A DNA stretch of 64,000 nt from a virus, in the IMG/VR virus record IMGVR_UViG_3300042892_001857, positions 1 to 64,000 of that record; one strand, written 5' to 3'. Made by a program: the position numbers and the translations under genes. The notes beneath the pieces were generated by a model that was given only the letters and a program-made list of their open reading frames with translations, was not told where the DNA came from and ran no database searches. This document shows positions 2-61,398 of the stretch, in pieces. The number at the start of each line of letters is the position of its first letter. The stretch's first letter is position 1.

Positions 2-676
2 ATCGTTGTTTCTATTAAACCAAGATTTAATCATCATCTTAACCATATAGAATAAACCTTTGTTCTTGAATCGTCTTGATGTGGTATAAACAATTTTGTT
101 TGCCACATAAAACTTATTTGGTTTTATTTTTGAACTTAAATGATAATCCTCAGCGAACTTGTCATCCGGATTAAATCCTCCCAATGAATTGAATTCCTCT
201 AAATTAAATAACATAAATCCTCCAACCGCAAAGGGTGTGGAGAATTTGGTTAAGTATTGGATAACATCAAATGATTTGTACACATAATTGTAATCACCAT
301 CGTCAGTTCTCATTTTAGTTGTTGACAAATGATAATCATTTTCTTTCATAACTTCAACCATACAATTTAATAAACAATATTGGTTGATGAATATGTCGGC
401 ATCCAAAAATAAAACATAAGGAGTTTTTATCTTTTTGACACCATTGTTTCTGGCTTCAGCCGGAAATCCCCCTTTAACTATTTTTACATTGATGTTGGTA
501 TGGTATGAACCAAGAATACATTTCTGTGTGAATCCATCGTCCGTTGAAGAATCGGCAACCATTACATTTACACCTTTAATATTATTTTGCAAGTTTAACA
601 ATCCTAAAGTTTTCTTTATGATTAATCCCTCATTTTTACAGGGGATTACAATTGTTAAATCCTTACTTAAACTCAT
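2..676 (-). CDS. Family 2 glycosyltransferase, C-terminus beyond window edge
   Basis: The reverse strand from the ATG at 676 reads MSLSKDLTIVIPCKNEG, followed by ADSSTDDGF, GFPAEARNNG and LFLDAD. This is the GT-A fold N-terminal half of a family 2 glycosyltransferase. The DAD near residue 98 is the expected DxD metal and nucleotide-sugar site. About 225 codons are visible and the rest lies left of the window. The start overlaps the stop of the next gene upstream by ATGA, so the two are translationally coupled. Likely roles are sugar transfer to phage DNA, virion protein or host surface glycan; the sequence does not decide between these. Confidence 0.85.
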   Translation of the reverse strand, partial: MSLSKDLTIVIPCKNEGLIIKKTLGLLNLQNNIKGVNVMVADSSTDDGFTQKCILGSYHTNINVKIVKGGFPAEARNNGVKKIKTPYVLFLDADIFINQYCLLNCMVEVMKENDYHLSTTKMRTDDGDYNYVYKSFDVIQYLTKFSTPFAVGGFMLFNLEEFNSLGGFNPDDKFAEDYHLSSKIKPNKFYVANKIVYTTSRRFKNKGLFYMVKMMIKSWFNRNND

Positions 677-2265
677 ATACTTATATCATCTAATCTATAA
701 TTAACATTTTCATTTACAACACTATCATCAGGTGATGGATACCATCTGTCATCGGGGTCAAAGTCAGGTTTATCAATATGACTTTCAGATAATAATTCAT
801 TAAATATTCCTTCTAAATCATACTTACCATCCCTATTCATATGATTTTCAAATATTTCATCAACCCAACCTTCATCAATATCAACTAAATTAGCTAAATC
901 GACTTGAATTTTGGCTCCGGTGTCATTAAATTCATATACATTACCATAAAACTCTAACGCCGACTCAATTTCTTTCTGTAGAAAATCTACATAATCATTT
1001 GCGTCAGCATCATTTATCGCACCACCAATAGCATTTCTTATTTCCCAATCATCATCCACTTGTTTGATAGAATCTTCTAAATCTAAATCCTCATCTAATT
1101 CAACACCATCTCTTTCTGCCATTTTTCTAACAATATCCCACAATCTTTCTTCGGTTGGTTTGTCTACTGTATATTGGAAATAACTACCAAAATCTTCGTA
1201 ACCGTCTTGATTCCACAAATCCCAAGCATCACCAGCCATTATTTCAACAAAAATACTTGTTCTTGTTTGTTTTCCGGTTGTTCTATTAGTATAAGTACGA
1301 TAGGTACATCCATCAACATAATCATCAAAATCCTCAGGTTTAATTTCTAATGAGAATCCTGTTGGTAATGGTTCCATTTCAATAATACCCATCTTATCTA
1401 ACAATCGTTGCATAGGTCTTGACGAGAACAACTCCGGTCTATTTTGATACAATTCTTTGATTGTTTGTTCCGGTAAGTCAGACAATTTAAAATCCTGTTC
1501 TGATGCGTACTCCGTTCCAAATCCTTGAATTAAATAATCATCTTCTTCACCTTCACCACCTAACACGTAGAATAACGGTTGAATGTATTGATGGTATTCA
1601 TCTTTTGGTTTTGAGTTCTTAACACCCTTCAACTGATACATAATACCATCCTCACCAATTGCCGCAGTTAGAACTGATTTGTTTAATTTATATTTGTTGT
1701 TAATCGGAATTACTTGTCTTAATGAATAAAGATATCCATAAGAACTTCTTCCACAATGTCCCATTCTATTACATTCTTCTGATGAGTTTTTTGTATTCAA
1801 ATCAGCCCAATAAAACCCATTTCCATTTTCATCAGTGAAATCTAATATAGTTGGGTTTTGTTCTTTATAATTAATATCACCCTGTCCAATTTCCAAATTA
1901 TCGTGCCATTCTTTTGACTGTAAAACCAAGTCAACAAAAGGTAAATCTTTATATTCGCCCAAATTACCGTTTAAACCAACCCGAACCCAATCCATAATAG
2001 ATTGGATACCACTCTGTTTCATTCTTAAAACACCATTGTTATTCATTTGGTCTATTAATTCAGAACCCGTTTTTACTTGATTACCCAACCTTCCACTACT
2101 ATATTGTTGGAACTCCATCATTTTTTTTGCCATCCAAACCGATAACGGACCACACAATTTATCTAATAGGTCAGCATTATCCTCATTAAAACCAATCTTA
2201 TCCATTAAGATTTTTTTCTTTGAAGCCTCAGTAATAATTTGTTTTATACTTTCTAATAATTTCAT
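673..2265 (-). CDS. PcfJ-like protein with [IL]xE N-terminal leader
   Basis: 530 residues. The leader MKLLESIKQIITEA ends in ITE at residues 11-13, the form shared by many genes here and matching T4 prohead protease sites. The middle (about residues 150-230) has CNRMGHCGR, then SLRQ, then a QLKG-VKN element. This order resembles PcfJ-like domains (HCV...Y...lR...Q.KG..N) but is divergent. The C-terminal half is very acidic. An ATATTTATAG box sits 4 bp before the ATG. No enzymatic function is assigned. It is a candidate packaged or injected protein by its leader only. Confidence 0.75.
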   Translation of the reverse strand: MKLLESIKQIITEASKKKILMDKIGFNEDNADLLDKLCGPLSVWMAKKMMEFQQYSSGRLGNQVKTGSELIDQMNNNGVLRMKQSGIQSIMDWVRVGLNGNLGEYKDLPFVDLVLQSKEWHDNLEIGQGDINYKEQNPTILDFTDENGNGFYWADLNTKNSSEECNRMGHCGRSSYGYLYSLRQVIPINNKYKLNKSVLTAAIGEDGIMYQLKGVKNSKPKDEYHQYIQPLFYVLGGEGEEDDYLIQGFGTEYASEQDFKLSDLPEQTIKELYQNRPELFSSRPMQRLLDKMGIIEMEPLPTGFSLEIKPEDFDDYVDGCTYRTYTNRTTGKQTRTSIFVEIMAGDAWDLWNQDGYEDFGSYFQYTVDKPTEERLWDIVRKMAERDGVELDEDLDLEDSIKQVDDDWEIRNAIGGAINDADANDYVDFLQKEIESALEFYGNVYEFNDTGAKIQVDLANLVDIDEGWVDEIFENHMNRDGKYDLEGIFNELLSESHIDKPDFDPDDRWYPSPDDSVVNENVNYRLDDISI

Positions 2266-2269
2266 ACCT

Positions 2270-2279
2270 CTATAAATAT
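2270..2279 (-). promoter_or_regulatory. ATATTTATAG box (putative late promoter)
   Basis: On the minus strand ATATTTATAG lies 4 bp before the ATG of the gene ending at 673. The same box recurs before most genes with [IL]xE leaders. If it is a -10 element the mRNA would be nearly leaderless. Confidence 0.55.
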
Positions 2280-2302
2280 AACAAAAACAAATAATGGTTA
2301 CG

Positions 2303-2312
2303 ATATTTATAG
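2303..2312 (+). promoter_or_regulatory. ATATTTATAG box (putative late promoter)
   Basis: ATATTTATAG lies 12 bp before the ATG at 2325. Spacing and sequence match the boxes before 7482, 13502, 17928 and 42721. Confidence 0.5.
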
Positions 2313-2324
2313 TAAAACATTATT

Positions 2325-4502: not shown

Positions 4503-4524
4503 AATTTTTTTTTATTTTATTATA

Positions 4525-4555: not shown

Positions 4556-4565
4556 ATTATTAATA

Positions 4566-7976: not shown

Positions 7977-9058
7977 GGTTTGTAATGTCTTTGATATGAT
8001 TTAAATCTTTGTTGACTAATATCATCCGTATCAACTATATTAAAATACCTCTCAACATCCGGATTGTTAATTAATTTAAGAAAGTAATCATTTACCTGAC
8101 TTCGAGCAATCGATAATCTTTTTAATTTTGTGTATCGTCTGATAGATAATTCTGTAGACATTTTCTTATACAACCAATAAGGTATTTTAATAAATTCAAA
8201 ACCTTCTTTACCTTCAACCGGACCTAACATTTCTATTTGAGATTTTGGTAACTTACTAAAGAATATATGAATGTTGTATGATTCCGCACCATCCATAAAC
8301 AAACCAGCATTATCCAATTGTTCGTGAATGTTTAATACATCAATCATCTTCCCACTATCCCCGGTAATCATATAGGCACCAATCATAGCTTTCTCTTCAG
8401 GTAGATAAACTAATTTATTAAAGTTGGGTGTTGTATCCACAATTTCCTCTTGTTCGTTTAACCTTGATGATAATGGTGGGTCCAATAAAAACTTATCGTT
8501 AACCCAATGTCTTAACTCATTCTCAACAAAATACTCAGGAACTTCTTCGTCATCCGGTTTGTTTGAAGCAATTTCTGCAATATGTCTAGCAAACCTAATT
8601 TTATATTTATCATCCATCATAGTCATTAAACCATCGGATATGAAGAATATCTTAGAGAAGGGGTCACTTAAATGTAAATCACCCTCAGCAACCTGAAATG
8701 ATTTAAGAATTACTTTACCCCAAAAAGTTTTATAATTTTCAGTTTCAGTTAAACTTGGTTTTAATATTTTGTTAACGGCTCTAATAACTCCACCAACAAT
8801 ACCAGGAATCATAAGTTGTGGTAAGAACCAAGGCAATAATCTAATTGTCGCTTTAACACCACCTTCACCAACGTGTTTAAATATTCTTTGTTTTGTAGCA
8901 CTCTCAACAATTGCTCGTAACTGACCAAAGGTAATCTTACCTTGGGCTTTACAGAACTTCTCACTATCACAAATGTTTTTAATAGTTGTTTTTGACGGTT
9001 CTATATCAGTATTCTCTAATATTTTAAAATATTGGTTTTCTTTAATTATAATTCTCAT
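7973..9058 (-). CDS. Hypothetical protein with [IL]xE N-terminal leader
   Basis: 361 residues. Starts MRIIIKENQYFKILENTD, with IKE at residues 5-7, the leader form shared by candidate capsid cargo here. After it come a cysteine pair (ICDSEKFCKAQG), a hydrophobic stretch near residues 70-95 (LLPWFLPQLMIPGIVGGVI), and a soluble C-terminal half. It shares a palindromic box with the divergent zinc protein gene at 9090. No enzyme motif recognised. Confidence 0.75.
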   Translation of the reverse strand: MRIIIKENQYFKILENTDIEPSKTTIKNICDSEKFCKAQGKITFGQLRAIVESATKQRIFKHVGEGGVKATIRLLPWFLPQLMIPGIVGGVIRAVNKILKPSLTETENYKTFWGKVILKSFQVAEGDLHLSDPFSKIFFISDGLMTMMDDKYKIRFARHIAEIASNKPDDEEVPEYFVENELRHWVNDKFLLDPPLSSRLNEQEEIVDTTPNFNKLVYLPEEKAMIGAYMITGDSGKMIDVLNIHEQLDNAGLFMDGAESYNIHIFFSKLPKSQIEMLGPVEGKEGFEFIKIPYWLYKKMSTELSIRRYTKLKRLSIARSQVNDYFLKLINNPDVERYFNIVDTDDISQQRFKSYQRHYKP

Positions 9059-12543: not shown

Positions 12544-13062
12544 TTATTGTTGACTAATATATTCTGAATCAAATATTACTTTAATTCCTGTTTTTGATGT
12601 TATGTTCTCCTTGAAATAATCATTTATACCCCACTGAACCTCGTCACTAACTTCCCACCCATAATCATCATCATTTAACGCATCTTCTAATGTTCTATTC
12701 TCACCATTTGAAACGGTAACTGTTCCCGACAAATCATTAACTTTTACACTAACAACAACATTTGGTTGTTTTTCATCCAATTCCCAATAGTCAATGTCAT
12801 CCACCTCAAAGAAGAAATCGTATCCACCATACTCATCTATATGATGGGGATTCTGAAGTAATAAAGTTTTGGCAAGTTCTTTTGATTCTTCCTCACCTCT
12901 CCACTCAATTAAGTATTTGTAAGCATCATCATAACTAACCATACCAGTTCTATCATCCAACTTAAACATATTGATGAATTGATTATCTACCTCACCCCCA
13001 AACTTATCAAAGTATTTGAATACGACGCTCTTATGTTTGGATTCCGTTATTATTAATTTCAT
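12544..13062 (-). CDS. Hypothetical protein with [IL]xE N-terminal leader
   Basis: 172 residues. Starts MKLIITESKHKSVVFKYF; ITE at residues 5-7 is the shared leader signature. The rest is acidic with a beta-rich centre (VVVSVKVNDLSGTVTVS). A CTATTTATAA box lies 29 bp upstream. First gene of a three-gene operon, so the two downstream orphan genes share its timing. Confidence 0.75.
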   Translation of the reverse strand: MKLIITESKHKSVVFKYFDKFGGEVDNQFINMFKLDDRTGMVSYDDAYKYLIEWRGEEESKELAKTLLLQNPHHIDEYGGYDFFFEVDDIDYWELDEKQPNVVVSVKVNDLSGTVTVSNGENRTLEDALNDDDYGWEVSDEVQWGINDYFKENITSKTGIKVIFDSEYISQQ

Positions 13063-16084: not shown

Positions 16085-17008
16085 TTAATTTAATAATTCT
16101 ATTTCCGTGTTATCATCCGTTAAGTGAGTCGGATAAGTTCTCAGTATGTCTTGTTTAATAGTTTTCATAATGTTATTCAATAATTCGGGGTCATCTTTAA
16201 AATTGGAATCCGGAGACATTTTTCTACCAATCATTTTACCTGCCTTAAGAATTTCAACAGATATTTTAATTTTACCATCAACATCTTCAATATCTTTAAT
16301 CATAAAATTAACTCTATGAGCATTATCACCATAACCTCCACTAATTAATTTTGATTGATTAGTCTTATTATCTTTATGTGTTACAAAACTTGTTACCCTA
16401 TCAGATTTAACTCTATCAATATTATAACTACCATTTATAAGACGTTCCATCTCACCTTTAGTTATACTCATAACATTTGCTCGTAAATTTGAATCGTATT
16501 TAACCGGGTCAATTTGACTCATTTGTTTTCTAGTAGAACTTGAATAGGTATCTAATGTTCTATACCATTGGTTATTAATAAATAAAAATACCGGATACCA
16601 ACCATATGACTCAATAACATAATACCAATCATTGTTATTGTTTACATTCCATTGTCCTTCAATGTTTGAACCTTTAAACGGCATCTTAGCTGTCGCATAT
16701 TCATAGGCGGTATTGTTGGTAACTTTTCTTTGTTTGAATTGTCTATAGTCTTTGAAATTGTCCTTTGTTAAACTTTTATAGTCCCCGTCCGGTCTGAAGT
16801 TAGCGGTATATATTTCGTAATACATAGTGGCATCACTTTGTGGGAAACCAAAATATCCTAACATATCTTTAATAAGTCGAATCATTTCAGTTTTGGTTCC
16901 TGATTTCTGCTTATTATCGTTAATAAATTTAAACAACAAAATCTCCTTCTTACTTAAGACAGGTTCTTCTTCTTGTTCTTTTAATATACGTCTGATTAAA
17001 TCTTTCAT
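16085..17008 (-). CDS. Hypothetical protein with [IL]xE N-terminal leader
   Basis: 307 residues from the ATG at 17008 (MKDLIRRILKEQEEEP), 1 bp after the ferritin gene stop. LKE at residues 9-11 is the leader signature. Then helical KKEILLFKFINDNKQKSG, a WYYVIESYGWYPVFLF aromatic block and a basic C-terminal half. Third gene of a 17928-16085 operon that also encodes a ferritin-like protein. Not recognised. Confidence 0.75.
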   Translation of the reverse strand: MKDLIRRILKEQEEEPVLSKKEILLFKFINDNKQKSGTKTEMIRLIKDMLGYFGFPQSDATMYYEIYTANFRPDGDYKSLTKDNFKDYRQFKQRKVTNNTAYEYATAKMPFKGSNIEGQWNVNNNNDWYYVIESYGWYPVFLFINNQWYRTLDTYSSSTRKQMSQIDPVKYDSNLRANVMSITKGEMERLINGSYNIDRVKSDRVTSFVTHKDNKTNQSKLISGGYGDNAHRVNFMIKDIEDVDGKIKISVEILKAGKMIGRKMSPDSNFKDDPELLNNIMKTIKQDILRTYPTHLTDDNTEIELLN

Positions 17009-17607: not shown

Positions 17608-17928
17608 TTATTTTCCTATTATCAGGTCGTCAAACCCTAGTTTATTCATTCCCCCAACTTCTTCATCATCTTTCAATTCGTCATACATATATGCTCTAAC
17701 AACAGATGTAATACTTTGTTCTACCTGAGCTATTTTACTTTCCATCCAATCGTCAAGTTGGTCGTTTTCTTCTTCTTCCATCTTTTCCCACATCTTTTCA
17801 GCTAACTTAACAATAGTATATAATTGTTGTTTTGCCATATATGAACCACGACCTTCATCTTCTTTAATGGTTTTCATTTTGGTAACCAACTTTTCAAGTT
17901 GTTTTTCTGTTAATATAATATCCTTCAT
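17608..17928 (-). CDS. Small acidic protein with [IL]xE N-terminal leader
   Basis: 106 residues from the ATG at 17928 (MKDIILTEKQLEKLV); the frame extends to 17961 but then runs through the promoter box. LTE at residues 6-8 is the leader signature. The rest is a Glu/Asp-rich helix (EKMWEKMEEEENDQLDDWMES) with a C-terminal conserved-looking GFDDLIIGK. First gene of the ferritin operon. Confidence 0.75.
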   Translation of the reverse strand: MKDIILTEKQLEKLVTKMKTIKEDEGRGSYMAKQQLYTIVKLAEKMWEKMEEEENDQLDDWMESKIAQVEQSITSVVRAYMYDELKDDEEVGGMNKLGFDDLIIGK

Positions 17929-22953: not shown

Positions 22954-24350
22954 TTTATCTTTTCCTGTAATAATTTCACAAACTCATTCTGAATCATTTT
23001 AGTAAACTTAATGTAAGGAGCATCTTCCGATTCTCTATTATAACCACCGGTCCCTTTTGGTGGACGATTACTTCTACCCATAAAATTTAACCCCGATATA
23101 TTTGTAATACATTTGTGTCCCCCACTATTTGCCTGAATAAAATCCCAAGCATTTACCTTAATGTTATCTAACATTTGTCTATGTTCTTCAGGTAACTCAG
23201 AGAAAGGTTTTTCCATCATCTCACCGATGTGAATTAATTCCTCTTTACCATCTTCCTTATTTTTATATTCCTTACCATACAACGCAACAAAATCTTTAAA
23301 GGTAAATCCTGTTGATTCCGAATTAAAATCTTTTGATGATTCTGAAATCCATTTAATTGTTGAAAGGGTTATCTCTCTTTGTTTTAATTGGTCCTCCCAT
23401 TTTGATAATACCTCTTGGGCAATCTCACCTAAATTCACACCTTTTAATTGACGTTCTCCTTTGAATGGGTTACAAGACGCTTGAACTAACCCTAACGGCC
23501 AAGCAATAACAATAAAGTCAGCCTCAGGATTATTTTTGAATGGTGTGTATCTATCGTAAGAACCTGGCTTAAACATTGAACCCCCACCATATTGAACAAT
23601 AACATTACCTAATACTTTAACATTAGGGTTAGTTTGCATTGATGTGACATAGTCTTCTTTATTCTTTTCAAGTTGGTCCGGTTTCGCGTATCCTTTCTCA
23701 ACCATTATTCGTTTAATGGTGTGAAGTATATTTAATAACGATGGAGAACATTCCATAACCAATGTCTCTAAGAACCCTGGTTTGTTTTTAAACGCTAATA
23801 ATAGTTTGTTAACAACTAACCCCATTAACATTTTATTCTTTTCTAACGATTTCTCTTTATCTAATCTGAATAAGTAAGAGATTACTTGGTCCACTGAAAT
23901 ATCGTTAACCGCATAGTTTGCAGAATCTACAGTAGAAATAAGTAATATGTCTGAGGATGGGAATAATTCTTTTGGAGAAACTACCTGAGAGATTGTCTCA
24001 ACATTTGAACGGGAACTTCTAAATGATGTTGATTTAGTGTCTTCAGCTCCGGCTTGTCTATCGTGGTGGTCTGTGTGAATCACAAACATTGGTTTTCCGT
24101 GAGCAAAATCAACTAAAACAGGCATCACGTCCCCTTTAGCGTCATTCTTCTTTACAGCGAACTCTTTATCACCATATTGGATGATATGAGAATCTATTAC
24201 ATCAATACCATTATTCTTAAGATATTCTTTCATCGCAATAGCCGTAGTTACACCATCTAAATCTTGGTGAAAATATATTTCAGCTTTAGGGTATCTTTTA
24301 GCAAGAGCGTTAATGTCTCTTAATCCACTTTCTTTTATAAGTTTTTTCAT
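22944..24350 (-). CDS. DHH-family phosphoesterase with [IL]xE N-terminal leader
   Basis: 468 residues. The leader MKKLIKESG has IKE at 5-7. Then the DHH core: HQDLDGVTTAIAM (H28, D30, D32), VLVDFAHG (D81), and HTDHHDRQ (DHH at 94-96). A DHHA1-like C-terminal glycine motif, ANSGGHKC, lies near residue 415. The family includes RecJ, NrnA oligoribonuclease and GdpP cyclic-dinucleotide phosphodiesterases. Substrate is not clear, but RNA/DNA oligonucleotides or cyclic dinucleotides are plausible. It is translationally coupled (TAATG) to the peptidoglycan-binding gene, which also has a leader. The leader suggests packaging and injection. Confidence 0.85.
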   Translation of the reverse strand: MKKLIKESGLRDINALAKRYPKAEIYFHQDLDGVTTAIAMKEYLKNNGIDVIDSHIIQYGDKEFAVKKNDAKGDVMPVLVDFAHGKPMFVIHTDHHDRQAGAEDTKSTSFRSSRSNVETISQVVSPKELFPSSDILLISTVDSANYAVNDISVDQVISYLFRLDKEKSLEKNKMLMGLVVNKLLLAFKNKPGFLETLVMECSPSLLNILHTIKRIMVEKGYAKPDQLEKNKEDYVTSMQTNPNVKVLGNVIVQYGGGSMFKPGSYDRYTPFKNNPEADFIVIAWPLGLVQASCNPFKGERQLKGVNLGEIAQEVLSKWEDQLKQREITLSTIKWISESSKDFNSESTGFTFKDFVALYGKEYKNKEDGKEELIHIGEMMEKPFSELPEEHRQMLDNIKVNAWDFIQANSGGHKCITNISGLNFMGRSNRPPKGTGGYNRESEDAPYIKFTKMIQNEFVKLLQEKINQS

Positions 24351-24706
24351 TAATCTAAACCAAACATATGTAAACCTTTATCAATGAAACTACCTTCATC
24401 GGATACACATTGTTTAAAAAGTTGAACGTCTTTATCAGACATTTTATTTTGTGTTTCAGGACCCCAAACACCATCTGCGGTAACACCAATCTTAGATTGA
24501 TATTTACTTAAAGCTTCCGCTGTTTTACCCGCTAGTAATCCGTCAACTTTTAATGGTTGATTCGCATCATCTTTATAACCTTTTTTGTTAAGGAAACATT
24601 GTATCCCTTTTTTAAGTTCAAAACCATCATTTTGTTCATTAACTAAACCATATCTTGAACGGATATCTCTTTTTTCATCTTCCGAAATTATAAATCTTTT
24701 TGCCAT
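24350..24706 (-). CDS. Peptidoglycan-binding domain protein with leader
   Basis: 118 residues. Leader MAKRFIISEDEKRDIRSRYGLVNEQ contains ISE (7-9) and VNE. Residues 33-90 are a PG_binding_1 domain: LKKGIQCFLNKKGY, VDGLLAGKTAEALSKYQ, VTADGVWGPETQNKM. It should bind cell-wall peptidoglycan but carries no hydrolase. A similar RRQYGLLTEQ leader occurs in the gene at 44484-45101. ATATTTATAA box 14 bp upstream. Confidence 0.85.
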   Translation of the reverse strand: MAKRFIISEDEKRDIRSRYGLVNEQNDGFELKKGIQCFLNKKGYKDDANQPLKVDGLLAGKTAEALSKYQSKIGVTADGVWGPETQNKMSDKDVQLFKQCVSDEGSFIDKGLHMFGLD

Positions 24707-27884: not shown

Positions 27885-29252
27885 TTAGTTAACTCTCATT
27901 ACGTAATAAGACTCACCACCTATATCAATACTGTCATAAGTACCGTCATAACTGTTCATAATACCCCACCCATCAGAATCAACTAACCCTTGAGCTAAAG
28001 CATCTCCATCAATATATTCTTTAACGTCCATACCGTAATCATTAAGATATTGCATAGGGTCTCGTTTAACCCACCTAACTAATTCTTCAACTTTATTATC
28101 AATCATATCCTCAGTTGGGTCAGTATCAACCTCAATATTGTCTAACTCTTCTTGAAGAGATTCAATCTGATTATCTAAATCCTCTTCGTAGTCATAATAA
28201 TTTTCATCATCTGAATCTAATTCAAGTTTTTGTTGTTCCAAATCCTCAATTTGAGATTCAATCTGTTCTATTCTTTCTTCTTGTTCTGAAGTCAATTCAA
28301 AATCATCATCATTAAAATAACTTTCCGGACTATCTCTTACTTGATATTCATAATCTTCTCTTGCAAAGTCAACAATTGCATCTTCATCCAAATAATCCTC
28401 AATAAAACTTTTACTAAACCCATCAGCTCCAACATCATCAATATAATTTTTAGAATACTCTAAAGCCGCTCTATCCATTTCTTCCTCAGTTCCAACAGTA
28501 TATTCTTCACCTTTAAAACCATCCACCAAAACTTCAAATTGAGTCAAACCATAATGAGTATAATTTGTTGGATACATATCATAGATGTCACCAACGTCAC
28601 CAGTTAAATCATCAATTCTTTCTTGAACTTCTTCAATTTTATTTAATATTTCCACATTCTCATCCGGGTCACCGTCTCTATCTTCATCATCATAATCGGC
28701 ATTAAGTTCTTCCAATTGTTGAGTCAATTCTTTTAACTCTTCTTTCTCATCATTATCCAATACTTTAACTTTACCTTGACCCTCAAGATATTCTAATAAA
28801 GCCATAGCCTTTAATCCCTCTTCATCGTGATTTTGAAAATTCCATTCATCATCTTCTCGTTTGGAGTCCATCTCAGCTTGTTTACCCAAAAGTTCTTGTT
28901 TTTCTCTAATTCTTTCTCGAGGAGACCCCGAATCCCAAATATGTGACTTACTTCTTAAATTACCAATATCGGATACTTTAGTTCTGCTAATATCAAATCT
29001 ACCGTCAACATAACCTATTGGTCCAATGTCTTTAACCGGTAAACCGCTTAAATCTAAATCACCTGTAATATATAATGGTTTTCCACCATATTTTTTCATT
29101 TTTCTAAACACATTACCATTATAACTGGCATATTGCATCATATCCAAGTAATCCTCAGGAGATATTCTATAATATTCGTCCTCAGTTTGCTCAACTATTT
29201 TTTTGATTACTTTATATAATTCGGATTCTGTAAGTCTTAATTTTCTACCCAT
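27885..29252 (-). CDS. Acidic coiled-coil protein with [IL]xE N-terminal leader
   Basis: 455 residues. The leader MGRKLRLTESELYKVIKKIVEQ has LTE at 7-9; nearly the same module (RLTENEMVGLIEKIVLEQ) is internal in the protein at 41405-42721. Then a short LRR-like or beta-helix stretch (LYITGDLDLSGLPVKDIGPIG), and long acidic coiled coils (EEQERIEQIESQIEDLEQQ-like). Resembles a scaffold or internal virion protein. Box 2 bp before the ATG. Confidence 0.75.
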   Translation of the reverse strand: MGRKLRLTESELYKVIKKIVEQTEDEYYRISPEDYLDMMQYASYNGNVFRKMKKYGGKPLYITGDLDLSGLPVKDIGPIGYVDGRFDISRTKVSDIGNLRSKSHIWDSGSPRERIREKQELLGKQAEMDSKREDDEWNFQNHDEEGLKAMALLEYLEGQGKVKVLDNDEKEELKELTQQLEELNADYDDEDRDGDPDENVEILNKIEEVQERIDDLTGDVGDIYDMYPTNYTHYGLTQFEVLVDGFKGEEYTVGTEEEMDRAALEYSKNYIDDVGADGFSKSFIEDYLDEDAIVDFAREDYEYQVRDSPESYFNDDDFELTSEQEERIEQIESQIEDLEQQKLELDSDDENYYDYEEDLDNQIESLQEELDNIEVDTDPTEDMIDNKVEELVRWVKRDPMQYLNDYGMDVKEYIDGDALAQGLVDSDGWGIMNSYDGTYDSIDIGGESYYVMRVN

Positions 29253-30446: not shown

Positions 30447-30878
30447 TTATTTTTTAGACCAATCACTTTTAGATTGTTTTGCCGCCGCTTTTGAAACACC
30501 ACATTTTGTTGATTTGAATGATGGGTCTTGAGTTTCATAGGATGGTGAATCAGGTAATTTTTTTTGTTTCTCCAAATACTTACTATAATCTTTTTCCGTT
30601 TTACCCGGATTAGCAGCTAACCAAGCATCAAGATATTTTTTATGTAATTCTTCAGCTTTCTTTAATTCAGGAGCTCTTTTTTCATCCCAAGCCTTTGCAA
30701 TTGAATCCTTTTTTTGAATGGTTTTAAGTTTTAATTCCTCAGCAGCTTTCTTTTTAAGTTCAAGTTTTTCTTTATTTAACTTAATTTGTTCTTCTCTACT
30801 TAATGGAACCGGTGTTGTTGATGGTGTAGTTTGTTCAACCAAAAAGTTATACTGAGATTCTTTAATTACTATTTTCAT
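30447..30878 (-). CDS. Lys/Glu-rich coiled-coil protein with [IL]xE leader
   Basis: 143 residues. Starts MKIVIKESQYNFLVEQ: IKE at 5-7 and VE-Q after it. The remainder is a charged helix (KLELKKKAAEELKLKTIQKK) and a basic C-terminus ending QSKSDWSKK. High positive charge fits an internal head protein that contacts DNA. Box 2 bp before the ATG. Confidence 0.75.
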   Translation of the reverse strand: MKIVIKESQYNFLVEQTTPSTTPVPLSREEQIKLNKEKLELKKKAAEELKLKTIQKKDSIAKAWDEKRAPELKKAEELHKKYLDAWLAANPGKTEKDYSKYLEKQKKLPDSPSYETQDPSFKSTKCGVSKAAAKQSKSDWSKK

Positions 30879-33976: not shown

Positions 33977-35368
33977 TTATTCTTCCATATGGTAGAAACC
34001 TTCACCCGTATTGTATTGTTCTAACGCTTTTGGCACTTGAACATTAGGACATCTACTTACATTCACAAATGTAAGGTTTGGTAAATTCATAATACATTCC
34101 GGAATTGTTTTCAATTCTTTGTTACCCGGAACAGCGATAAACACCAAGTTCTTTAATTCACAGATTGAGTTTGGAAGTTTACTAATCATATTCTCAAACA
34201 ATATTGCTGTTAATGATTGGAATCTACTGATTGACTCAGGAACATCAATTGTAACACTTTCTGTTGAAGTGTTAATAATGTTCAATCTTTTAATTGTTAT
34301 AGGTAATGATGTAAATAATTCATCAAATCCGTATAAAGCCACGAACTTACCTGTAGCAGAGTCCGGGTATTTAATTTCAACATTATCAGAATTTGGTTTA
34401 ACAAATCCAGCCGCAAACTCAGGTTTGAATATTTCTTTAAACTCAGACCATTTACCATTCAAATACTCAACAACCGGAATGTTACCACCGTGTTGGTTAG
34501 CAAATTTAAATTGGTTAGATGGGAAGTGGAATTGATATCTTTCTGATGGTAACCCCGTAACTTGACCAACCTTACCTTTATCATCATTAGCAATAAAGAT
34601 ATATAATGGACCTTGTTGTCTGTAAGTGTTTGAATAACTTGAATTTTCTGCTGCCGTACACCAGTTAGTTTCACCTCTATCAAGTCCTCCACTATAACCA
34701 CCGAAATAAGATGCCGCTTTAGAACCTAAAGCACCTTTGTCAGCAATTTTAATTAGTGTGTATTCAGAACCAACTTTTAAAATTTCAGCTCCGGGAATAT
34801 TAAAGTTTGTGTTAGCAGCAACACCTTCTTCTTTCTTAATTTTTTTACCACGATACATATTTAAATCAACCGTTTCATCACCCACTTTAACTTTCAAGTG
34901 AGATAAATCATTAAGTGATTTAACATTGTTAATGTCTTTTTTAGCGGCATCCTCTAAACTACCTTTAAATCTATCATATTTCACTAATAATTCAGTGAAT
35001 TGAGATAAATCTTCTAAGAAAAGTCGTCTGTATTCAGTCGCCTTTGATTTATACTCATCAGTCCCAACCTCAATTGGTTCATTAGAACCTTCTCTAGTTA
35101 TGTATGGTTTAACAAATAGATTCAACAACCATTGGGTATATTTACCAACTTTAATTTTGTCACTTGTCATATCCTCAATAGACGCACCTTCCTTATCGTA
35201 GTTCTCAGGAACTCTCGTTGTTGGGTCAGCGAAAACAATTTGTTTAACAACCTCAAATGGTAGTAAACCTTTTTTTCTATCACCACTAGGTAACACATAT
35301 TTTTTGTATAAAATTTGAAAACGAGCGTCTTCAGTAACTAAGTTCGATAATACTTTTGTAATCTTCAT
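33977..35368 (-). CDS. LRR protein with WC-type PcfJ-related domain and leader, paralogue 1
   Basis: 463 residues. Leader MKITKVLSNLVTED ends in VTE (11-13). The middle has GGLDRGETNWCTAAENSSYSN, then GPLYIFIANDDKGKVGQ and YQFHFPSNQFKFANQHG. The C-terminal 110 residues are leucine-rich repeats (IKRLNIINTS, LTAILFENMISKLPNSI, LTFVNVSRCPNVQVP). Very similar to the next gene over its whole length. A possible host-targeting effector: LRR for protein binding, WC domain for catalysis or binding, leader for packaging. No function is proven. Confidence 0.8.
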   Translation of the reverse strand: MKITKVLSNLVTEDARFQILYKKYVLPSGDRKKGLLPFEVVKQIVFADPTTRVPENYDKEGASIEDMTSDKIKVGKYTQWLLNLFVKPYITREGSNEPIEVGTDEYKSKATEYRRLFLEDLSQFTELLVKYDRFKGSLEDAAKKDINNVKSLNDLSHLKVKVGDETVDLNMYRGKKIKKEEGVAANTNFNIPGAEILKVGSEYTLIKIADKGALGSKAASYFGGYSGGLDRGETNWCTAAENSSYSNTYRQQGPLYIFIANDDKGKVGQVTGLPSERYQFHFPSNQFKFANQHGGNIPVVEYLNGKWSEFKEIFKPEFAAGFVKPNSDNVEIKYPDSATGKFVALYGFDELFTSLPITIKRLNIINTSTESVTIDVPESISRFQSLTAILFENMISKLPNSICELKNLVFIAVPGNKELKTIPECIMNLPNLTFVNVSRCPNVQVPKALEQYNTGEGFYHMEE

Positions 35369-35403: not shown

Positions 35404-36801
35404 CTATTCTTCCATATGGTAATAACCATTACCTTCATTATATTTTTCCAATTCTTTTGGTACTTGAACATTAGGACATCCGTTTACATTTAAAAATGTA
35501 AAGTTTTTTAATGACAGTATACAATCCGGAACTGATTTTAATTCTTTATTATCAGGGAAAGCCAATAACGTCAAGTTCTTCAACTCACAGATGTTATCAG
35601 GAATTGAACTAATCATATTCTGAAACATCACCGCCACTAACGATTTAAACCTAACAATTGACTTAGGAAGTGCTACACTAATGTTTTCATTTGAAGTGTT
35701 AACAATATTTAATTTTTTAATCGTGTCCGGTAACGCCTCAAATAATTCTTCAAACCCATATAACGCAACAAATCTACCTGTTTCATCAGATGGATATCTA
35801 ATGTTAACGTTTTCACTATTTGGTGTAACAAACCCTTTAGCAAATTCAGGTTTCAATATTTCTTTAAATTCACTCCATTTACCATTTAAAAATTCAACAA
35901 TTGGGACATTACCCTCAGCAGAATATTGGTCACGAGATTTAAATTGACTCGGTGCTGGAAAGTGAAGTTGATATCTTTCTGTAGGTAATCCTGTTACCTC
36001 ACCTACTTTACCTTTATCGTCATTAGCCATAATAATATATAATGGACCTTTTTGTCTATATCTATGTGAGTGGTCAGAACCTGTTGCTGCCGTACACCAA
36101 TTAGACTCACCTCTTGCTAATCCTCCTTCGTAACCTCCAAAATAAGAAGCCGCCTTAGAACCTAAGTCACCTTTATCAGAAATTCTAATCAAGGTATATT
36201 CTGAACCAACCTTTAATATTTCCGCACCGGGAAAATTAAAGTTTGTTTTAACGTCAGCACCTTTTTCGTTTTTAACTTTTTTACCACGATACACAGCCAA
36301 ATCAACTGTTGTATCACCATACTCAACTTGTAATTGAGATAATTCGTTAATAGATTTAACATTATTAATATCTTTCTTAGACGCATCTACTAAACTACCT
36401 TTGAATCTTTCAAATTTTGTTAGTAATTCAGTAAAGTAATGTAAATCTTCTAAAAAAAGTTTTCTATATTGATTTGCCTTTGATTTATATTCGTCAGTAT
36501 TAACTTCTATAACATCATTATTGTCATTAGTTAAATGTGGTTTAATAAACATATTTAACATCCATTGACTATATTTCCCAACCTTAATTTGATTACTTAA
36601 CATATCTTCAACGGACGCACCATTTTTGTCATAGTTAACCGGAACTCTTGTTGTTGGGTCAGCAAAAACTATTTGCTTAACAATTTCAAAAGGAAGTAAT
36701 CCTTTTTTTCTATCACCACTAGGTAGTATATATTTATTATAAAATACCTGAAAACGAGCGTCTTCAGTTATTAAATTTGAAAGTACTTGGATAATCTTCA
36801 T
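35404..36801 (-). CDS. LRR protein with WC-type domain and leader, paralogue 2
   Basis: 465 residues. Leader MKIIQVLSNLITED ends in ITE (11-13). Shares with paralogue 1 the segments DARFQ..Y.KYILPSGDRKKGLLPFE, NWCTAATGSDHSHRYRQKG, YQLHFPAPSQFKSRDQ and the C-terminal LRRs. Divergence is highest around the loop after NWCTA, suggesting diversifying selection there. Each copy has its own promoter box, so this is a duplicated transcription unit. Confidence 0.8.
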   Translation of the reverse strand: MKIIQVLSNLITEDARFQVFYNKYILPSGDRKKGLLPFEIVKQIVFADPTTRVPVNYDKNGASVEDMLSNQIKVGKYSQWMLNMFIKPHLTNDNNDVIEVNTDEYKSKANQYRKLFLEDLHYFTELLTKFERFKGSLVDASKKDINNVKSINELSQLQVEYGDTTVDLAVYRGKKVKNEKGADVKTNFNFPGAEILKVGSEYTLIRISDKGDLGSKAASYFGGYEGGLARGESNWCTAATGSDHSHRYRQKGPLYIIMANDDKGKVGEVTGLPTERYQLHFPAPSQFKSRDQYSAEGNVPIVEFLNGKWSEFKEILKPEFAKGFVTPNSENVNIRYPSDETGRFVALYGFEELFEALPDTIKKLNIVNTSNENISVALPKSIVRFKSLVAVMFQNMISSIPDNICELKNLTLLAFPDNKELKSVPDCILSLKNFTFLNVNGCPNVQVPKELEKYNEGNGYYHMEE

Positions 36802-41404: not shown

Positions 41405-42721
41405 TTATTGTGTTTTTCGGTCGTAACTAATTAACGATTTCATTCTGTCAAACTCTTCGTTGATTTGTTTTGTTTTCTTTTCAGTAGATTCCAATTTAAG
41501 GTTAATACCTTTACCACTATCCTCACCTGTCGCATCTTTAATAGGTTGAGCAGATTTTTGATAAGCCATATTTCTTACTTTAGCAAATTTATTAGCTTTA
41601 CGTTTGGCATTAATCTTTTTGTTAACATCTGTTTCAACAGCATTACCCCATTCAGAGTTATTACCTGTTTTAGAAGAACCTTCAATGTTATTAGTTATTT
41701 GTTCTTCATTCGGTTCTATTTGGTCATAGTCTAAATTTTCCATACCAGGACTCATAAAATCATCAATAAATTCTTGACCCGCATCTGACATAGTATAAGC
41801 CTTTTTCTTCATCTTTTCTATTTCACCATTTCCTTTAGGAAACATTTTAGGGTTCATTTCATAATCACCTTTAGAACCATCTTTAAGATAATCTTTCATT
41901 TTTTTGGTAACCGCTTTAATGTTATCATCATTTTCCTTTCCGGAACCATTGTGAGCTTTTTTATAAACCTCTAATCCTCTTGGAGAACCTCCAAAACCTT
42001 TAATGTTATTTTTTTCCGCAGGGTCTTTAACTTCTTTATTTTTTTGTTCTAACACAATTTTCTCAATTAACCCAACCATTTCATTTTCAGTCAATCTATA
42101 CGATTCTTTAACCGGATATTTTTTACCATCTACTTCAAAAGAATCTTTACCACTTTTTTTAGCGTTAGATAACGCTCCTGAGAAAGCATTACCTTCTTCC
42201 GTTTCTTGTTCTTCCATTCCGTGTGTTGTAGAAATTTTGTTAATTCTTTTAATGGCTTTACTATTTTTTGATTTATTTCTTAACATTTCAAAGTCTTCAG
42301 CATCAATCTTATTGTTTTTGTTTTTATCCAATTTTCTTTGACGACCTTTTAATGCCTCGGTAATATTAATACCTTGACACATTTCTTTAGTAACAGGGTC
42401 TTCTTTACCAAAATTTTCAATATGGTATCTACAAGTTTTTTCTCTATCTTCGTCAGTGTTTTCTTCATCACCAACAAAGTCTTCACTTTCTCCAACATAA
42501 TCAAACTCATCATCTAATGTGTTATCAACATCGTAAATTCCTTCACTCATATCCTCATACATACCACCACATTCATTACATTCACCTTCATACATTTGAC
42601 CCCCACATTCGCAAACGTCACCTTTAATCTTTGAAACAAGAGTGTCCGCCTTTTCTTCTAAAGTTTCTTTTAAAATTTTAGACACTAAATTATCTAAATA
42701 AGTTGTATTTAATTTTTTCAT
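41405..42721 (-). CDS. Modular acidic protein with leader, zinc ribbon, EF-hand and internal leader copy
   Basis: 438 residues. Leader MKKLNTTYLDNLVSKILKET has LKE at 17-19. A zinc-ribbon-like CECG...CNECGG (C37, C39, C48, C51), an EF-hand-like DKNKNNKIDAEDF (132-144), and ITE at 120-122 follow. At 209-226 RLTENEMVGLIEKIVLEQ repeats the leader of the 27885-29252 protein. C-terminal QINEEFDRMKSLI is a further site. The chain may be cut at several [IL]xE sites, as T4 prohead core proteins are. Candidate scaffold or internal head protein. Confidence 0.75.
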   Translation of the reverse strand: MKKLNTTYLDNLVSKILKETLEEKADTLVSKIKGDVCECGGQMYEGECNECGGMYEDMSEGIYDVDNTLDDEFDYVGESEDFVGDEENTDEDREKTCRYHIENFGKEDPVTKEMCQGINITEALKGRQRKLDKNKNNKIDAEDFEMLRNKSKNSKAIKRINKISTTHGMEEQETEEGNAFSGALSNAKKSGKDSFEVDGKKYPVKESYRLTENEMVGLIEKIVLEQKNKEVKDPAEKNNIKGFGGSPRGLEVYKKAHNGSGKENDDNIKAVTKKMKDYLKDGSKGDYEMNPKMFPKGNGEIEKMKKKAYTMSDAGQEFIDDFMSPGMENLDYDQIEPNEEQITNNIEGSSKTGNNSEWGNAVETDVNKKINAKRKANKFAKVRNMAYQKSAQPIKDATGEDSGKGINLKLESTEKKTKQINEEFDRMKSLISYDRKTQ

Positions 42722-42760: not shown

Positions 42761-43519
42761 TTACTTTGAAAAGGTATTTTCATACTCATAAGCGATAATT
42801 GTTTTAATAACATTCTCACTTATATTATGTCTCTCACTAATATTTTGAATAGCTTTCTTAACCTTTTCATTTTCAAATATTTTTAGAGCTTTAATATCTC
42901 CTTGATTACAATATGGAAATTTTTGACATTTCTTTTTAACTTGAACAAACTTTCCTCCGGGTATTTGTGTCTTAGACTTTCCTCTCCAATCTTTTTTACT
43001 TTGAGATTTAGCCCAAGCGGCGGTAGTTTCATAAGAACCGGAAGAACCTGAACCTGTTGATTCAGTAGCCTCAACTTTTTTAATATCACCCTCGTCACCT
43101 TCTCTTACACAATTAGGGACCATTCGTGTACCTTTCTTTTTCATACCCTTTTGTTCAAAACCTGTCCAACATTTTTCTTGCATCTCTTGTTTAGTTTCAG
43201 AGAATAATGGAGCCTCAAACCCTCCTGCGGAACCTGAACCGGTAGATTCAGATGTTTCACTATCTTCACCCATTATTGGTAGTCCCATTGTTAATTTACC
43301 TGTTGGTGTTTTAAGTTTACTCTTACCCACTAATTTGCCGATATCAACCTTTTTCATTGGTTTTTTAATTATTTTATTATTATTTTCCGGGATTTCATTT
43401 TTAAATTCGTTAGCTGCAACCGCCGCATCAATACCACCACTAGTAATTGTAGACAATTTTCCCATTTCAGTTGACATAGCGCTTTTCAAATCAGTCCCAA
43501 TACTTTCTTTTAGTCTCAT
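42761..43519 (-). CDS. Hypothetical protein with short [IL]xE leader
   Basis: 252 residues. Starts MRLKESIGTD; LKE at 3-5. Two repeats ESTGSGSAGGFEAPLF and ESTGSGSSGSYETTAAW (about 90 and 155) share a TGSGSxG core. A basic module KFVQVKKKCQKFPYCNQGD with two cysteines and a C-terminal helix (KVKKAIQNISERHNISENV) follow. Part of the same region as the modular scaffold-like gene; probably structural. Confidence 0.7.
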   Translation of the reverse strand: MRLKESIGTDLKSAMSTEMGKLSTITSGGIDAAVAANEFKNEIPENNNKIIKKPMKKVDIGKLVGKSKLKTPTGKLTMGLPIMGEDSETSESTGSGSAGGFEAPLFSETKQEMQEKCWTGFEQKGMKKKGTRMVPNCVREGDEGDIKKVEATESTGSGSSGSYETTAAWAKSQSKKDWRGKSKTQIPGGKFVQVKKKCQKFPYCNQGDIKALKIFENEKVKKAIQNISERHNISENVIKTIIAYEYENTFSK

Positions 43520-44484: not shown

Positions 44485-45101
44485 TATTCTTCAGTTTTAA
44501 TTGTTTTCTTTCTTGATGATAATACAGCCGCCCATTTTGATTTGAATTTCTCGTAATAAGTTTTTAATTTAGTAATTAACGCGATGAATTCATTATCAGC
44601 GTTTAACATTTCTCCATTGATGTAAACACCATTTTCTTCACCTATCGAAAAGAAAAATTCAATATCAAATTCAATAAGTTTCCCGGACCATTCAACATTA
44701 TTGGAATATACGTTTAATTTATTAAAATCAACCATATCAGAAACGTTAGAAACAAACTCATCCATTGTTTCTTGAAACGCTATCTTCTCATCTGTCGTTA
44801 ACTCTAAATCTGTTTGTTCTTTTCCGTGTAAAACCAATAATCCACCGGAAATTCTATACGCTTGCTTTTTATCATCCTCAGATTCAAGTTCTTCTTCAGT
44901 ATCAGCGGTATCATAATCAATTTTGTCCTCAACAGATTTAGTCACATTAACTTTTGATGTAACATTATTATCTGTCAAATCAACACCCTGTTCTGTCAAT
45001 AACCCATATTGTCTACGGATATCTTCATTTACATTATTATCCCCCAATAATCTTCGAGAAACATTTAATAATTGTTTAATTTCGTCGTGTGAATTATTCA
45101 T
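44484..45101 (-). CDS. Acidic protein with [IL]xE-containing N-terminus
   Basis: 205 residues. N-terminal NVNEDIRRQYGLLTEQGVD includes LTE at about 34-36 and matches the leader EDEKRDIRSRYGLVNEQ of the peptidoglycan-binding protein. Then an acidic stretch (DTEEELESEDDKKQ) and an alpha/beta domain (NNVEWSGKLIEFDIEFFFSIGEENG). Sits between endolysin and spanin-like genes, 1- and 8-bp overlaps. Candidate virion cargo. Confidence 0.7.
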   Translation of the reverse strand: MNNSHDEIKQLLNVSRRLLGDNNVNEDIRRQYGLLTEQGVDLTDNNVTSKVNVTKSVEDKIDYDTADTEEELESEDDKKQAYRISGGLLVLHGKEQTDLELTTDEKIAFQETMDEFVSNVSDMVDFNKLNVYSNNVEWSGKLIEFDIEFFFSIGEENGVYINGEMLNADNEFIALITKLKTYYEKFKSKWAAVLSSRKKTIKTEE

Positions 45102-56428: not shown

Positions 56429-56481
56429 AACTTTATTAGTTTTTTAATCCCCCTATATTTATGATAATAACTTTTAAGCAA

Positions 56482-56703: not shown

Positions 56704-56704
56704 T

Positions 56705-57766: not shown

Positions 57767-57769
57767 TAG

Positions 57770-57796
57770 TAATAAAATAAAATAAAATAAAATAAT
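57770..57796 (+). repeat. Pentanucleotide (TAAAA)n tract before a start codon
   Basis: About five AATAA/TAAAA units end 0-3 bp before the ATG of the 57797 gene. It is the only simple-repeat tract of this kind I saw in the window. Confidence 0.65.
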
Positions 57797-59983: not shown

Positions 59984-59986
59984 TTT

Positions 59987-60559
59987 ATGACATCAATAAT
60001 CCTAAATAGTATCACAGGGTTAACTTACCCATACGATGTTTACGTATGTGATGTCTATGGGAATAATTGTGGATATATTGTTCAAATTAACACACCTGTA
60101 CCAGCATCTGTAGAAATTGTATTACCAATTCCATTTGATATGGCACCCGCTGTCGGTATTAAAATTATAACCTCGGATGGGTGTGAACGATTTAATATTA
60201 TTAATTGTAACTCTTTATACCCAACGCCAACCCCAACAATGACTCAAACCCCAACAAACACTCTTACTCCAACACCGACACCAACTATAACTCCAACAAA
60301 CACTCTTACTCCAACACCGACACCAACTATAACTCCAACCCACACACAAACCCCAACAAACACTCTTACTCCAACACCGACACCAACTATAACTCCAACC
60401 CACACACAAACCCCAACAAACACTCTTACTCCAACACCGACACCAACTATAACTCCAACCCACACACAAACACCTACACCGACTCCAATATATTATTTAG
60501 AACAAGCCAACGGGTTTTACATTTTACAAGCCAATGGGTCAAAAATTATTATAACATAA
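59987..60559 (+). CDS. Thr-Pro repeat fibre protein
   Basis: 190 residues. N-terminal domain (1-75) related to the protein at 56482. Residues 78-165 are almost pure Thr-Pro-x repeats ([16 protein letters not shown]), encoded by 42- and 60-bp DNA repeats. The C-terminal [16 protein letters not shown] is a compact beta hairpin. Probably an extended, flexible linker between a virion base and a tip. Confidence 0.75.
60259..60471 (+). repeat. Tandem 60-bp repeats, in-frame
   Basis: A 42-bp unit (60259-60300), two identical 60-bp units (60301-60360, 60361-60420) and a third unit identical for its first 51 bp (to 60471). All multiples of 3. Perfect identity points to recent expansion. Confidence 0.9.
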
Positions 60560-60560
60560 A

Positions 60561-60570
60561 CTATTTATAA
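60561..60570 (+). promoter_or_regulatory. CTATTTATAA box (putative late promoter)
   Basis: 10 bp before the ATG at 60581. Confidence 0.45.
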
Positions 60571-60580
60571 ATAAAAAGAT

Positions 60581-61219
60581 ATGCCAGATTTACCAATATC
60601 AGGATTACCCGAATTAACCGCTACAACCTCAAATGCAGAATATGCTGTTGAACTTTCGGGAACAACATATAAAATAAAACAATCAACATTAACACCGTTT
60701 CCGTTGGCATATGGTTTATTTGCCCAAACAGGTGATAGCGCTACGGTATCCGCAACCACTGTCGAGACTAGTGTAATAGGACCGGGTGTTGGGACTTTGT
60801 CTGTTCCTGCAAATAGTTTCAGAGTTGGTGATTCGTTTCAAGCATCATTCGATGGCGTTTTGTCTTGCATTAACACCGCAACAATCCACGTTCACGTTAG
60901 AACAACTGGTGGGACATTACTCATTGATACAGGAGTAATAGATTTGGATACCTCAACCTCAAAGCCTTGGTTATTAACACTATATTTCACGATAAGACAA
61001 ATCGGGGGAACCACCGTTGCTTCAATATCATCCGGTGGACTATTCTCCTACCTTAAAGATTCTGGACTTACCTATGAAGGATATCCATTAAGTGAGATTA
61101 ATAATACGACATTTGACACCACAATAATCAACACATTATCGGTGAATGTCCAATGGAATACCACTAATGCGGGAAATCAAATATTTTCAAGAAATTTTAC
61201 ACTTACTAAAATTTATTAA
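60581..61219 (+). CDS. Tail fibre-like structural protein
   Basis: 212 residues. N-terminal MPDLPISGLPELTATTSNAEYAVE is a form I associate with phage fibre or head-decoration proteins (ISxLPxl.....d..ipv). The rest is Thr/Ser/Val-rich beta structure (ATIHVHVRTTGGTLLIDTGVIDLD). No enzymatic motif. Separate unit with its own box. Confidence 0.7.
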   Translation: MPDLPISGLPELTATTSNAEYAVELSGTTYKIKQSTLTPFPLAYGLFAQTGDSATVSATTVETSVIGPGVGTLSVPANSFRVGDSFQASFDGVLSCINTATIHVHVRTTGGTLLIDTGVIDLDTSTSKPWLLTLYFTIRQIGGTTVASISSGGLFSYLKDSGLTYEGYPLSEINNTTFDTTIINTLSVNVQWNTTNAGNQIFSRNFTLTKIY

Positions 61220-61398
61220 TCAATAGGTTTATTTTCTCTCTTACCTAAATTTTCATATATCCTTAGAAGTTTTAAGGATTCGTAGTAATTTTTTTCTAAT
61301 CTATCAAGTTCCTTCTCAGGAACACCTTTGTCACAAGCCGTTTCGTAGACATTTTTAGCCTCAGTAACAACATTTGATATTGTGTCTATAAGTTTCAT
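61216..61398 (-). CDS. Small protein with [IL]xE-type leader
   Basis: 60 residues from the ATG at 61398 (MKLIDTISNVVTEAK); the longer frame needs a TTG and would run over the box. VTE at 11-13 is the leader signature. The remainder is a single charged helix (LDRLEKNYYESLKLLRIYENLG). It is the lone minus-strand gene in the fibre block. Confidence 0.7.
   Translation of the reverse strand: MKLIDTISNVVTEAKNVYETACDKGVPEKELDRLEKNYYESLKLLRIYENLGKRENKPID

Follow-up and report, generated by a model that had tools for sequence, protein, structure and literature searches.

Putative capsid-targeting leaders on many proteins of a T4-like jumbo phage

Leader genes of the window

Positions 1 to 64,000 of IMG/VR virus record IMGVR_UViG_3300042892_001857, the whole stretch analysed here and called the window, were examined for genes whose products begin with a short leader ending in glutamate. 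The original prediction was that about sixteen unrelated proteins of the window share such a leader, ending in [ILV]xE, and that it is a capsid-targeting sequence like that of the T4 internal proteins, removed by a protease like T4 gp21. All 16 leader strings quoted were present at the named genes, and 15 of the 16 were supported to some degree, the exception being the gene at 29600. The leaders are listed in Table 1. Genes are named by their first position, a hyphen within a motif marks a predicted cut and the part behind the leader is called the cargo.

The window, part of a T4-like jumbo phage, makes up the first 64 kb of a linear virus record of 96,471 bases. Beyond the window the record encodes a T4-type baseplate wedge protein, a gp25-like protein and a DnaB helicase. 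Used as a query, the wedge protein recovered a contig of 272,437 bases, G001, which contains the whole record at 99.994% identity over 96,471 bases and therefore represents the same virus in a less fragmented form. The nearest isolate by wedge protein was Flavobacterium phage immuto (NC_055915), at 27% identity. Immuto (160 kb) and a 318 kb relative, G003, were used as comparison genomes. No near match to the first 25 kb of the window was found among 50,697 phage records, and an Rfam search of the window gave no match.

Table 1. Leaders and candidate leaders encoded in the window, in window positions
Gene	Leader	Position of leader	Strand	Predicted cut or remark
673-2265	MKLLESIKQIITE	2227..2265	-	before A14
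7973-9058	MRIIIKENQYFKILE	9014..9058	-	before N16, not after E7
12544-13062	MKLIITE	13042..13062	-	before S8
16085-17008	MKDLIRRILKE	16976..17008	-	before Q12
17608-17928	23 residues ending TIKE	17860..17928	-	first candidate site ILTE at residue 8
22944-24350 (DHH family)	MKKLIKE	24330..24350	-	before S8
24350-24706	24 residues ending GLVNE	24635..24706	-	before Q25
27885-29252	21 residues ending KIVE	29190..29252	-	before Q22, not after LTE
29600-30418	MKYINE	29600..29617	+	not supported as leader
30447-30878	MKIVIKESQYNFLVE	30834..30878	-	before Q16
33977-35368	MKITKVLSNLVTE	35330..35368	-	before D14
35404-36801	MKIIQVLSNLITE	36763..36801	-	before D14; evidence from relatives as for 33977
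41405-42721	19 residues ending KILKE	42665..42721	-	before T20
42761-43519	MRLKE (5 residues)	43505..43519	-	weak candidate
44484-45101	37 residues ending GLLTE	44991..45101	-	candidate; before Q38
61216-61398	MKLIDTISNVVTE	61360..61398	-	before A14

By sequence, the putative leaders fall into several families. Six leader models were seeded by eye and set against decoys, mostly cut at internal methionines, with a threshold passed by about 2% of the decoys. The models matched 48 of the 340 G001 genes of 55 residues or more. One of these is the scaffold, which leaves 47 non-scaffold genes, a few of them borderline (9 bits). The model of family III shifted towards scaffold N-termini and is the only one that three of the 47 genes match. 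Four helix-type leaders (673, 33977, 35404 and 61216) are outside the model count, so that about 50 leader genes is a fair figure. Predicted leader lengths were 5-37 residues, most of them 7-24. Family I often reads MKIIITESQYxxLIxE, followed by the cut. A gene at L001:8181-8780 (+), outside the window, also starts leader-like, with MKKTLKES, and gave no Pfam match. Among 57 replication, tail or shell genes of G001, classes hand-picked by the analyst, none fitted a leader model, compared to 47 of 271 others; a motif equally common in the replication genes had been named in advance as a result that would speak against the prediction.

Within the window, the family I model scored 24, 27 and 26 bits on the leaders of 7973, 12544 and 30447, the family IV model scored 19 bits on 16085, and 41405 was matched by families II and IV (19 and 11 bits). 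Relatives of 12544 keep MK[LI]IITE. Single orthologs read MKELIRRILRE for 16085, MKILITESQYNFLIE-Q for 30447, KVLKE-N for 41405 and NLVTE-S for 61216, and the N-terminus of 61216 also matched the other helix-type leaders. An ortholog with GIINE-QVDLTD was aligned to GLLTE-QGVDLTD of 44484. The start of 17608 was corrected, on the basis of orthologs, to MKDIILTE, eight codons inside the longest ATG open reading frame; the family I model gave 11 bits on the uncorrected start. This gene has 12 distinct relatives, its cargo begins near GSYMAKQQL, and the Glu before the cargo is probably the second one, after the site first proposed. A start choice led by Shine-Dalgarno sequences shortened leader genes and was rejected.

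That the leaders end in Glu held up, but not every cut site did. Three leaders, those of 7973, 24350 and 27885, contain a further Glu 8-15 residues beyond the one first read, and it is this second Glu that precedes the cargo. The single ortholog found for 7973 lacks E7 and retains KLTE-N, and the orthologs of both 7973 and 27885 in G003 have lost the first family I Glu. Most leaders are short, as had been claimed, but the site of 44484 lies at residue 37, and 42761 is a weak case with a five-residue leader, one ortholog (MKIKE-N) and no leader model match. At 29600 the Glu was kept in only one of seven distinct relatives. Differing body clusters and domains bear out that the proteins are largely unrelated, but 33977 and 35404 are tandem paralogs, so that the 16 are not all unrelated.

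Few of the cargo proteins resembled known domains. In a Pfam search of 31 candidate leader proteins two gave matches over the curated cut-off, namely 24350 (PG_binding_1 at residues 35-89) and the G001 gene at 90780 (L5 gp82-like domain). Ten of the 31, a further set from G001, had no Pfam match over the curated cut-off. The 22944 protein matched Pfam DHH below the cut-off (5.7e-5), carries DLDG and HTDHHD motifs and has 595 related stretches in viral contigs. Its AlphaFold model was weak, with a mean predicted local distance difference test score (pLDDT) of 61.6, and a function as an injected phosphodiesterase is a guess. C-terminal leucine-rich repeats were seen below the Pfam cut-off in 33977 and 35404, with matches to such repeats in the PDB down to 3.4e-13 for 33977. 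The 673 protein gave a fair model (mean pLDDT 81, predicted template modelling score 0.56), in which residues 1-14 had pLDDT <50, a predicted disorder that ends at the predicted cut. A fold search with this model found nothing in the PDB at E<=0.001, and one unnamed viral protein was matched.

Sharing and exchange of leaders

With so short and common a motif as [ILV]xE, the leaders could be a chance pattern for which fitting genes were picked. The failure of 29600 fits this explanation, and so does the bare motif in the window, which was found with Glu at residues 5-9 in 13 of 96 proteins vs 9.2+-2.8 after shuffling (42 vs 32.8+-4.0 for residues 5-25). The excess over the shuffled control was thus weak in the window, but at residues 5-9 it was clear in G001 (64 of 329 proteins vs 30.7+-5.2). 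More specific motifs speak against chance. A Met-anchored specific leader motif was observed at 9 of 96 true starts and 5 of 357 internal Met in the window (p=5e-4), and at 38 of 329 and 17 of 1595 in G001 (p=5e-18). Immuto had no excess of this motif (5 of 206 starts, 13 of 747 internal Met, p=0.35). The form [LIV][ILV]xE, which is that of the capsid protein's own site described below, was present at 24 of 96 window N-termini and in 33 of 362 interior stretches (p=8e-5). Unsupervised counting of 4-mers over 598 body clusters gave IITE at 15 N-termini where 0.5 were expected, and also recovered the N-terminal words TESQ, ISEQ and ITES.

The leaders were also compared directly, using the first 45 residues of proteins with non-matching bodies and a threshold of 24 bits or more. 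This leader-only comparison gave 156 pairs, as opposed to 24-30 pairs in five interior controls. Together with the leader models and the orthologs of 22944 and 24350, to which we return below, it makes chance hardly credible, and for the leader families as a whole the leader-only similarity refutes it. A tblastn search with two leader peptides in a phage collection gave no match for one of them and matches to immuto records only for the other.

N-terminal similarity groups also included non-leaders, one group consisting of signal peptides and one of fibre-like proteins. Signal peptides were considered as leaders and rejected; they form a separate N-terminal group ending in Q. In the window, signal-peptide-like N-termini ending FSQ or AQ are found at 2325-2912 (+) and 43770-44210 (-) and constitute a second N-terminal similarity group. 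Large fibre-like proteins are encoded at 56461-64000 (+), and several have an N-terminal stretch in common with proteins encoded at other places in the genome. Near 60219-60478 there is an internal repeat of some 60 bases.

A shared beginning could also be a remnant of common ancestry, the genes being one strongly diverged paralogous family and the leader not a movable tag. The paralogs 33977 and 35404 are in line with this, as are the many family I genes arranged in tandem in two stretches of G001 (217-226 kb and 234-245 kb). However, the linked proteins belong to different body clusters, 28 of them in the largest leader-only group, different known domains follow the leaders and leaders are exchanged between orthologs. 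Common ancestry is therefore a highly unlikely explanation.

As judged from the alignments, leaders and cargo are exchanged between orthologs with Glu retained before the cargo. One case was the DHH family of 22944, with 45 distinct ortholog N-termini. In all 41 that were tabulated, P1 is E and P3 is I or L, with P2 varying between K, N, T, I, V and S. The remaining four have E before the cargo too, three of them with MKIIITESQ prefixed. For 24350, GL[VLI][NS]E-Q was kept in 23 of 23 relatives, and its leader precedes two non-matching cargo groups of 21 and 3 proteins, its own protein included. The 673 protein reads IITE-ASKKKILMDK, and homologs read LLNE-SKKEILMDK or ILTE-SKLKVLID behind unrelated beginnings. 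Junctions in the 33977 family are LVTE-DARFQ, LITE-QSRFQ and IIVE-SSRFQ. Nine aligned relatives of 27885 differ in their beginnings, and all have Glu at the same helix end, most with an offset of one residue from the window protein.

A stratified junction measure, the frequency of a shared phi-x-E near the body start compared to interiors, was less clear than these single cases. Where both proteins have leaders and the first ten residues differ, the value was 0.46 vs 0.105 (6 clusters). Where one has a leader it was 0.225 vs 0.086 (21 clusters), and where neither has one, 0.079 vs 0.120 (74 clusters).

Head protease, capsid site and scaffold

The original prediction proposed a search for a gp21-like protease elsewhere in the genome, and such a protease was found. 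G001 encodes a Peptidase_S77 protein (4.9e-24) between a Portal_T4 portal protein, gp20 (3e-79), and a Gp23 capsid protein (1.3e-74). This head module is situated elsewhere on the 272 kb contig. The S77 protease and the gp23/gp20 head genes are absent from the 96,471-base record alone, in which profile searches with PF04586 and PF03420 gave no match, the second of the controls being silent. PhiKZ-type head genes were also looked for in G001; Peptidase_S80 appeared only below its cut-off, and it is the T4-type Pfam models that match.

The capsid proteins of two clades were aligned (158 rows, one of which has a gap at the site). The position aligned with IVSE-A of immuto was [LIV][IV]xE in 157 of 157 relatives, followed by A in 119, Q in 21, S in 6, T in 6, E in 3 and V in 2. 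By homology, the capsid protein is predicted to be cut here. T4 gp23 reads SFLTE-A in the corresponding region, within which we take its cut to lie. The putative leaders end in the same form as this predicted capsid site. The proteases themselves carry LIRE-S (G001) and LLTE-S (immuto) ahead of their domain.

Exact MKIIITESQ codons were present in at least 120 stretches of viral contigs; a control DNA pattern matched one contig and gives no base rate. The 31 distinct records of 62 kb or more among the matches listed, mostly of one clade by capsid scores, were searched for head genes. Gp23 was found in 12 and Peptidase_S77 in 13. Both were present in 8 of the 11 records of 120 kb or more and in all five above 220 kb. 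If each record came from a genome with one head module, about 14 would be expected to contain it, a rough estimate from a summed length of 3.84 Mb and a genome of about 280 kb. Gp23 and S77 were both absent from the contig of a 215 kb relative by wedge protein, G002.

Some leaders resemble the tail of the scaffold protein. In the immuto clade the motif R[MWF][QK]xLAG, which like the looser one was picked after inspection of the data, occurs 62 times near the scaffold C-terminus. The 1,171 other proteins of this clade contain it seven times within residues 1-40 (in five records) and never in the part between the ends. Two further occurrences lie close to the C-terminus, one of them in the immuto scaffold itself, unlabelled. 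An example of a leader of this kind is KRWQQLAGIITE-A. A looser motif in the clade of the window gave 51 scaffold tails, 10 other N-termini, 3 other C-termini and one hit in 327,578 interior residues; two of the 10 N-termini belong to orthologs of each other and do not look like leaders, and there are ortholog pairs among the others. The stricter RMKx[LM] had no N-terminal excess in this clade (1 against 2). A Microcystis phage scaffold ends in VERMKKLAGIVK, and the motif is absent from the C-terminus of T4 gp22. Since the motif is present in some leaders, these may dock as the scaffold tail does, by imitation.

The word TATTTAT was found within 40 nt upstream of the start in 20 of 47 model leader genes and in 4 of 4 helix-type leaders. 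The corresponding counts were 14 of 31 for virion genes, 39 of 222 for other genes and 1 of 25 for replication/enzyme genes. As the classes were hand-picked and the word was chosen after inspection of the data, the p-value (1e-7) is too favourable. The pattern suggests that the leader genes are switched on together with the virion genes. TATAAATA, which we take to be the T4 late box, was not enriched upstream of leader genes (1 of 47 vs 15 of 282), whereas TATTTAT, the core of its reverse complement, was. The window also encodes a sigma-70-family factor at 46811-47611 (-), a candidate partner of TATTTAT.

Proposed packaging of the cargo and comparison with known systems

The best reading of these results is a greatly enlarged capsid-targeting propeptide system of the T4 type. 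That the leaders are prohead (capsid) targeting propeptides is given a probability of roughly 0.84. Docking, cleavage, packaging and ejection of the cargo are what we infer from it. During head assembly, the short N-terminal leader would dock its cargo protein into the scaffold core, and leaders with the scaffold-tail motif would do so by imitating the scaffold. Next, the S77 serine protease of gp21 type would cleave behind the Glu of phi-x-E, the kind of site also predicted in the major capsid protein, so that the mature cargo would be released within the head. Many mature cargo proteins would leave the head with the DNA at infection. Purely by analogy, injection of most leader proteins is considered rather likely, at lower confidence than the targeting itself. 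The chances are about even for the still wider proposal of open loading in these uncultivated jumbo phages, in which about one in seven genes would carry one of several interchangeable, removable leaders, some of them scaffold-mimicking, some fifty proteins would be delivered and new cargo would be gained by joining to a leader.

Besides the weak excess of the bare motif in the window, several results weigh against the propeptide reading. Near window N-termini the control patterns (x+1 shift, D and K) were likewise raised, to a lesser degree (p=0.007-0.01). For immuto the shift-1 control gave more there than [LIV][ILV]xE. The leader models match 5 of 208 immuto genes, and leader-like N-termini in that phage were judged by eye. 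In several family I members the first Glu, which is less conserved, is the sole one. L344, one more relative of 27885, is without a leader when read from its called start. Without stratification, the junction test on 76 clusters gave no excess (0.129 vs 0.118 inside proteins); the excess is confined to the leader strata of 6 and 21 clusters, and in the stratum of 6 clusters with both leaders Lys was raised too (0.28). S77 was missing from 18 of the 31 sampled leader-bearing records, all of them fragments or of uncertain completeness. Finally, the peptidoglycan-binding cargo of 24350 could act other than inside the head.

An alternative that draws on this last point is that the leaders are docking or localisation peptides for the tail, the membrane or a replication compartment, phi-x-E being merely common at helix ends. 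Packaging of the cargo is itself inferred, and the Glu site is short and common; the loose form phi-phi-x-E was observed in 4 of 26 replication/enzyme genes and 6 of 31 virion genes, compared to 37 of 47 leader genes. However, targeting to another structure does not account for Glu being retained at the boundary of leader and cargo while P2 varies, for a predicted site of this form in every one of the 157 capsid proteins or for leaders that resemble the scaffold tail, and it is considered unlikely. The core of the original prediction, a T4-like capsid-targeting sequence cut by a gp21-type protease, is well supported by the protease, the capsid site, the swapping of leaders, the lack of model leaders on the 57 picked replication, tail or shell genes and the upstream word; several cut sites and one member had to be given up.

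If the propeptide reading is true, the protein payload of a group of environmental jumbo phages could be listed by sequence alone, which usually needs proteomics of cultured virions. Since only 2 of 31 proteins matched Pfam over the cut-off, such a list would single out uncharacterised proteins, possibly the first to act on the host. The likeness of some leaders to the scaffold tail offers a definite hypothesis of docking, and leaders might be used as tags for loading. Searches of listings of open-access papers turned up none that deals with leader families of these phages or with the likeness to the scaffold tail.

The closest known system is that of T4, and for it and the other published systems the statements below follow excerpts of the cited papers. 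The T4 internal proteins carry propeptides of 10-19 residues that target them to the head and are cut by gp21 after L/I-X-E, and reviewers suggest that this signal allows T4-like phages to package varied proteins (PMC9026906). One of them, IPIII, enables infection of one E. coli strain (PMC9391042). The system described here is similar in its short predicted N-terminal propeptide ending in L/I-X-E, its gp21-type S77 protease and its varied cargo (PMC9026906), and in leaders shared by proteins with different mature parts. T4 has three internal proteins and Alt, whereas here there are about 50 genes and several leader families.

Immuto is like the virus of the window in having a gp21-type protease, IVSE-A in gp23 and, by eye, leader-like proteins beside the terminase. 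It differs in size (160 kb) and in its leader forms, which are RMQKLAGIITE and FDLKKFLVEN...KILKEN. Many immuto genes beside the terminase (L005:2294-18931) are leader-like and are annotated as hypothetical or with unrelated names.

In phage P1, an N-terminal signal likewise loads protein into the head, in the form of the capsid-targeting sequence of DarB and the propeptide of DarA, and the first 30 residues of DarB load a foreign reporter protein (PMC9024508). The N-termini of DarA and of the P1 capsid protein are both cut by Pro (PMC12810830). Unlike the system described here, the head of P1 is not T4-like and only a handful of proteins is involved.

Among giant phages, PhiKZ, 201phi2-1 and SPN3US have 19, 19 and 9 head proteins, respectively, that are cut by the prohead protease (PMC10052503). 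They share with the present virus, where cleavage is predicted, the many head proteins and the cut after Glu. The N-terminal propeptides of SPN3US are 111-254 residues long in all but two cases, and the excerpt of PMC10052503 describes no shared, interchangeable short leaders there. If the propeptide reading is true, the payload of the present virus would be larger than the 19 processed head proteins of PhiKZ (PMC10052503).

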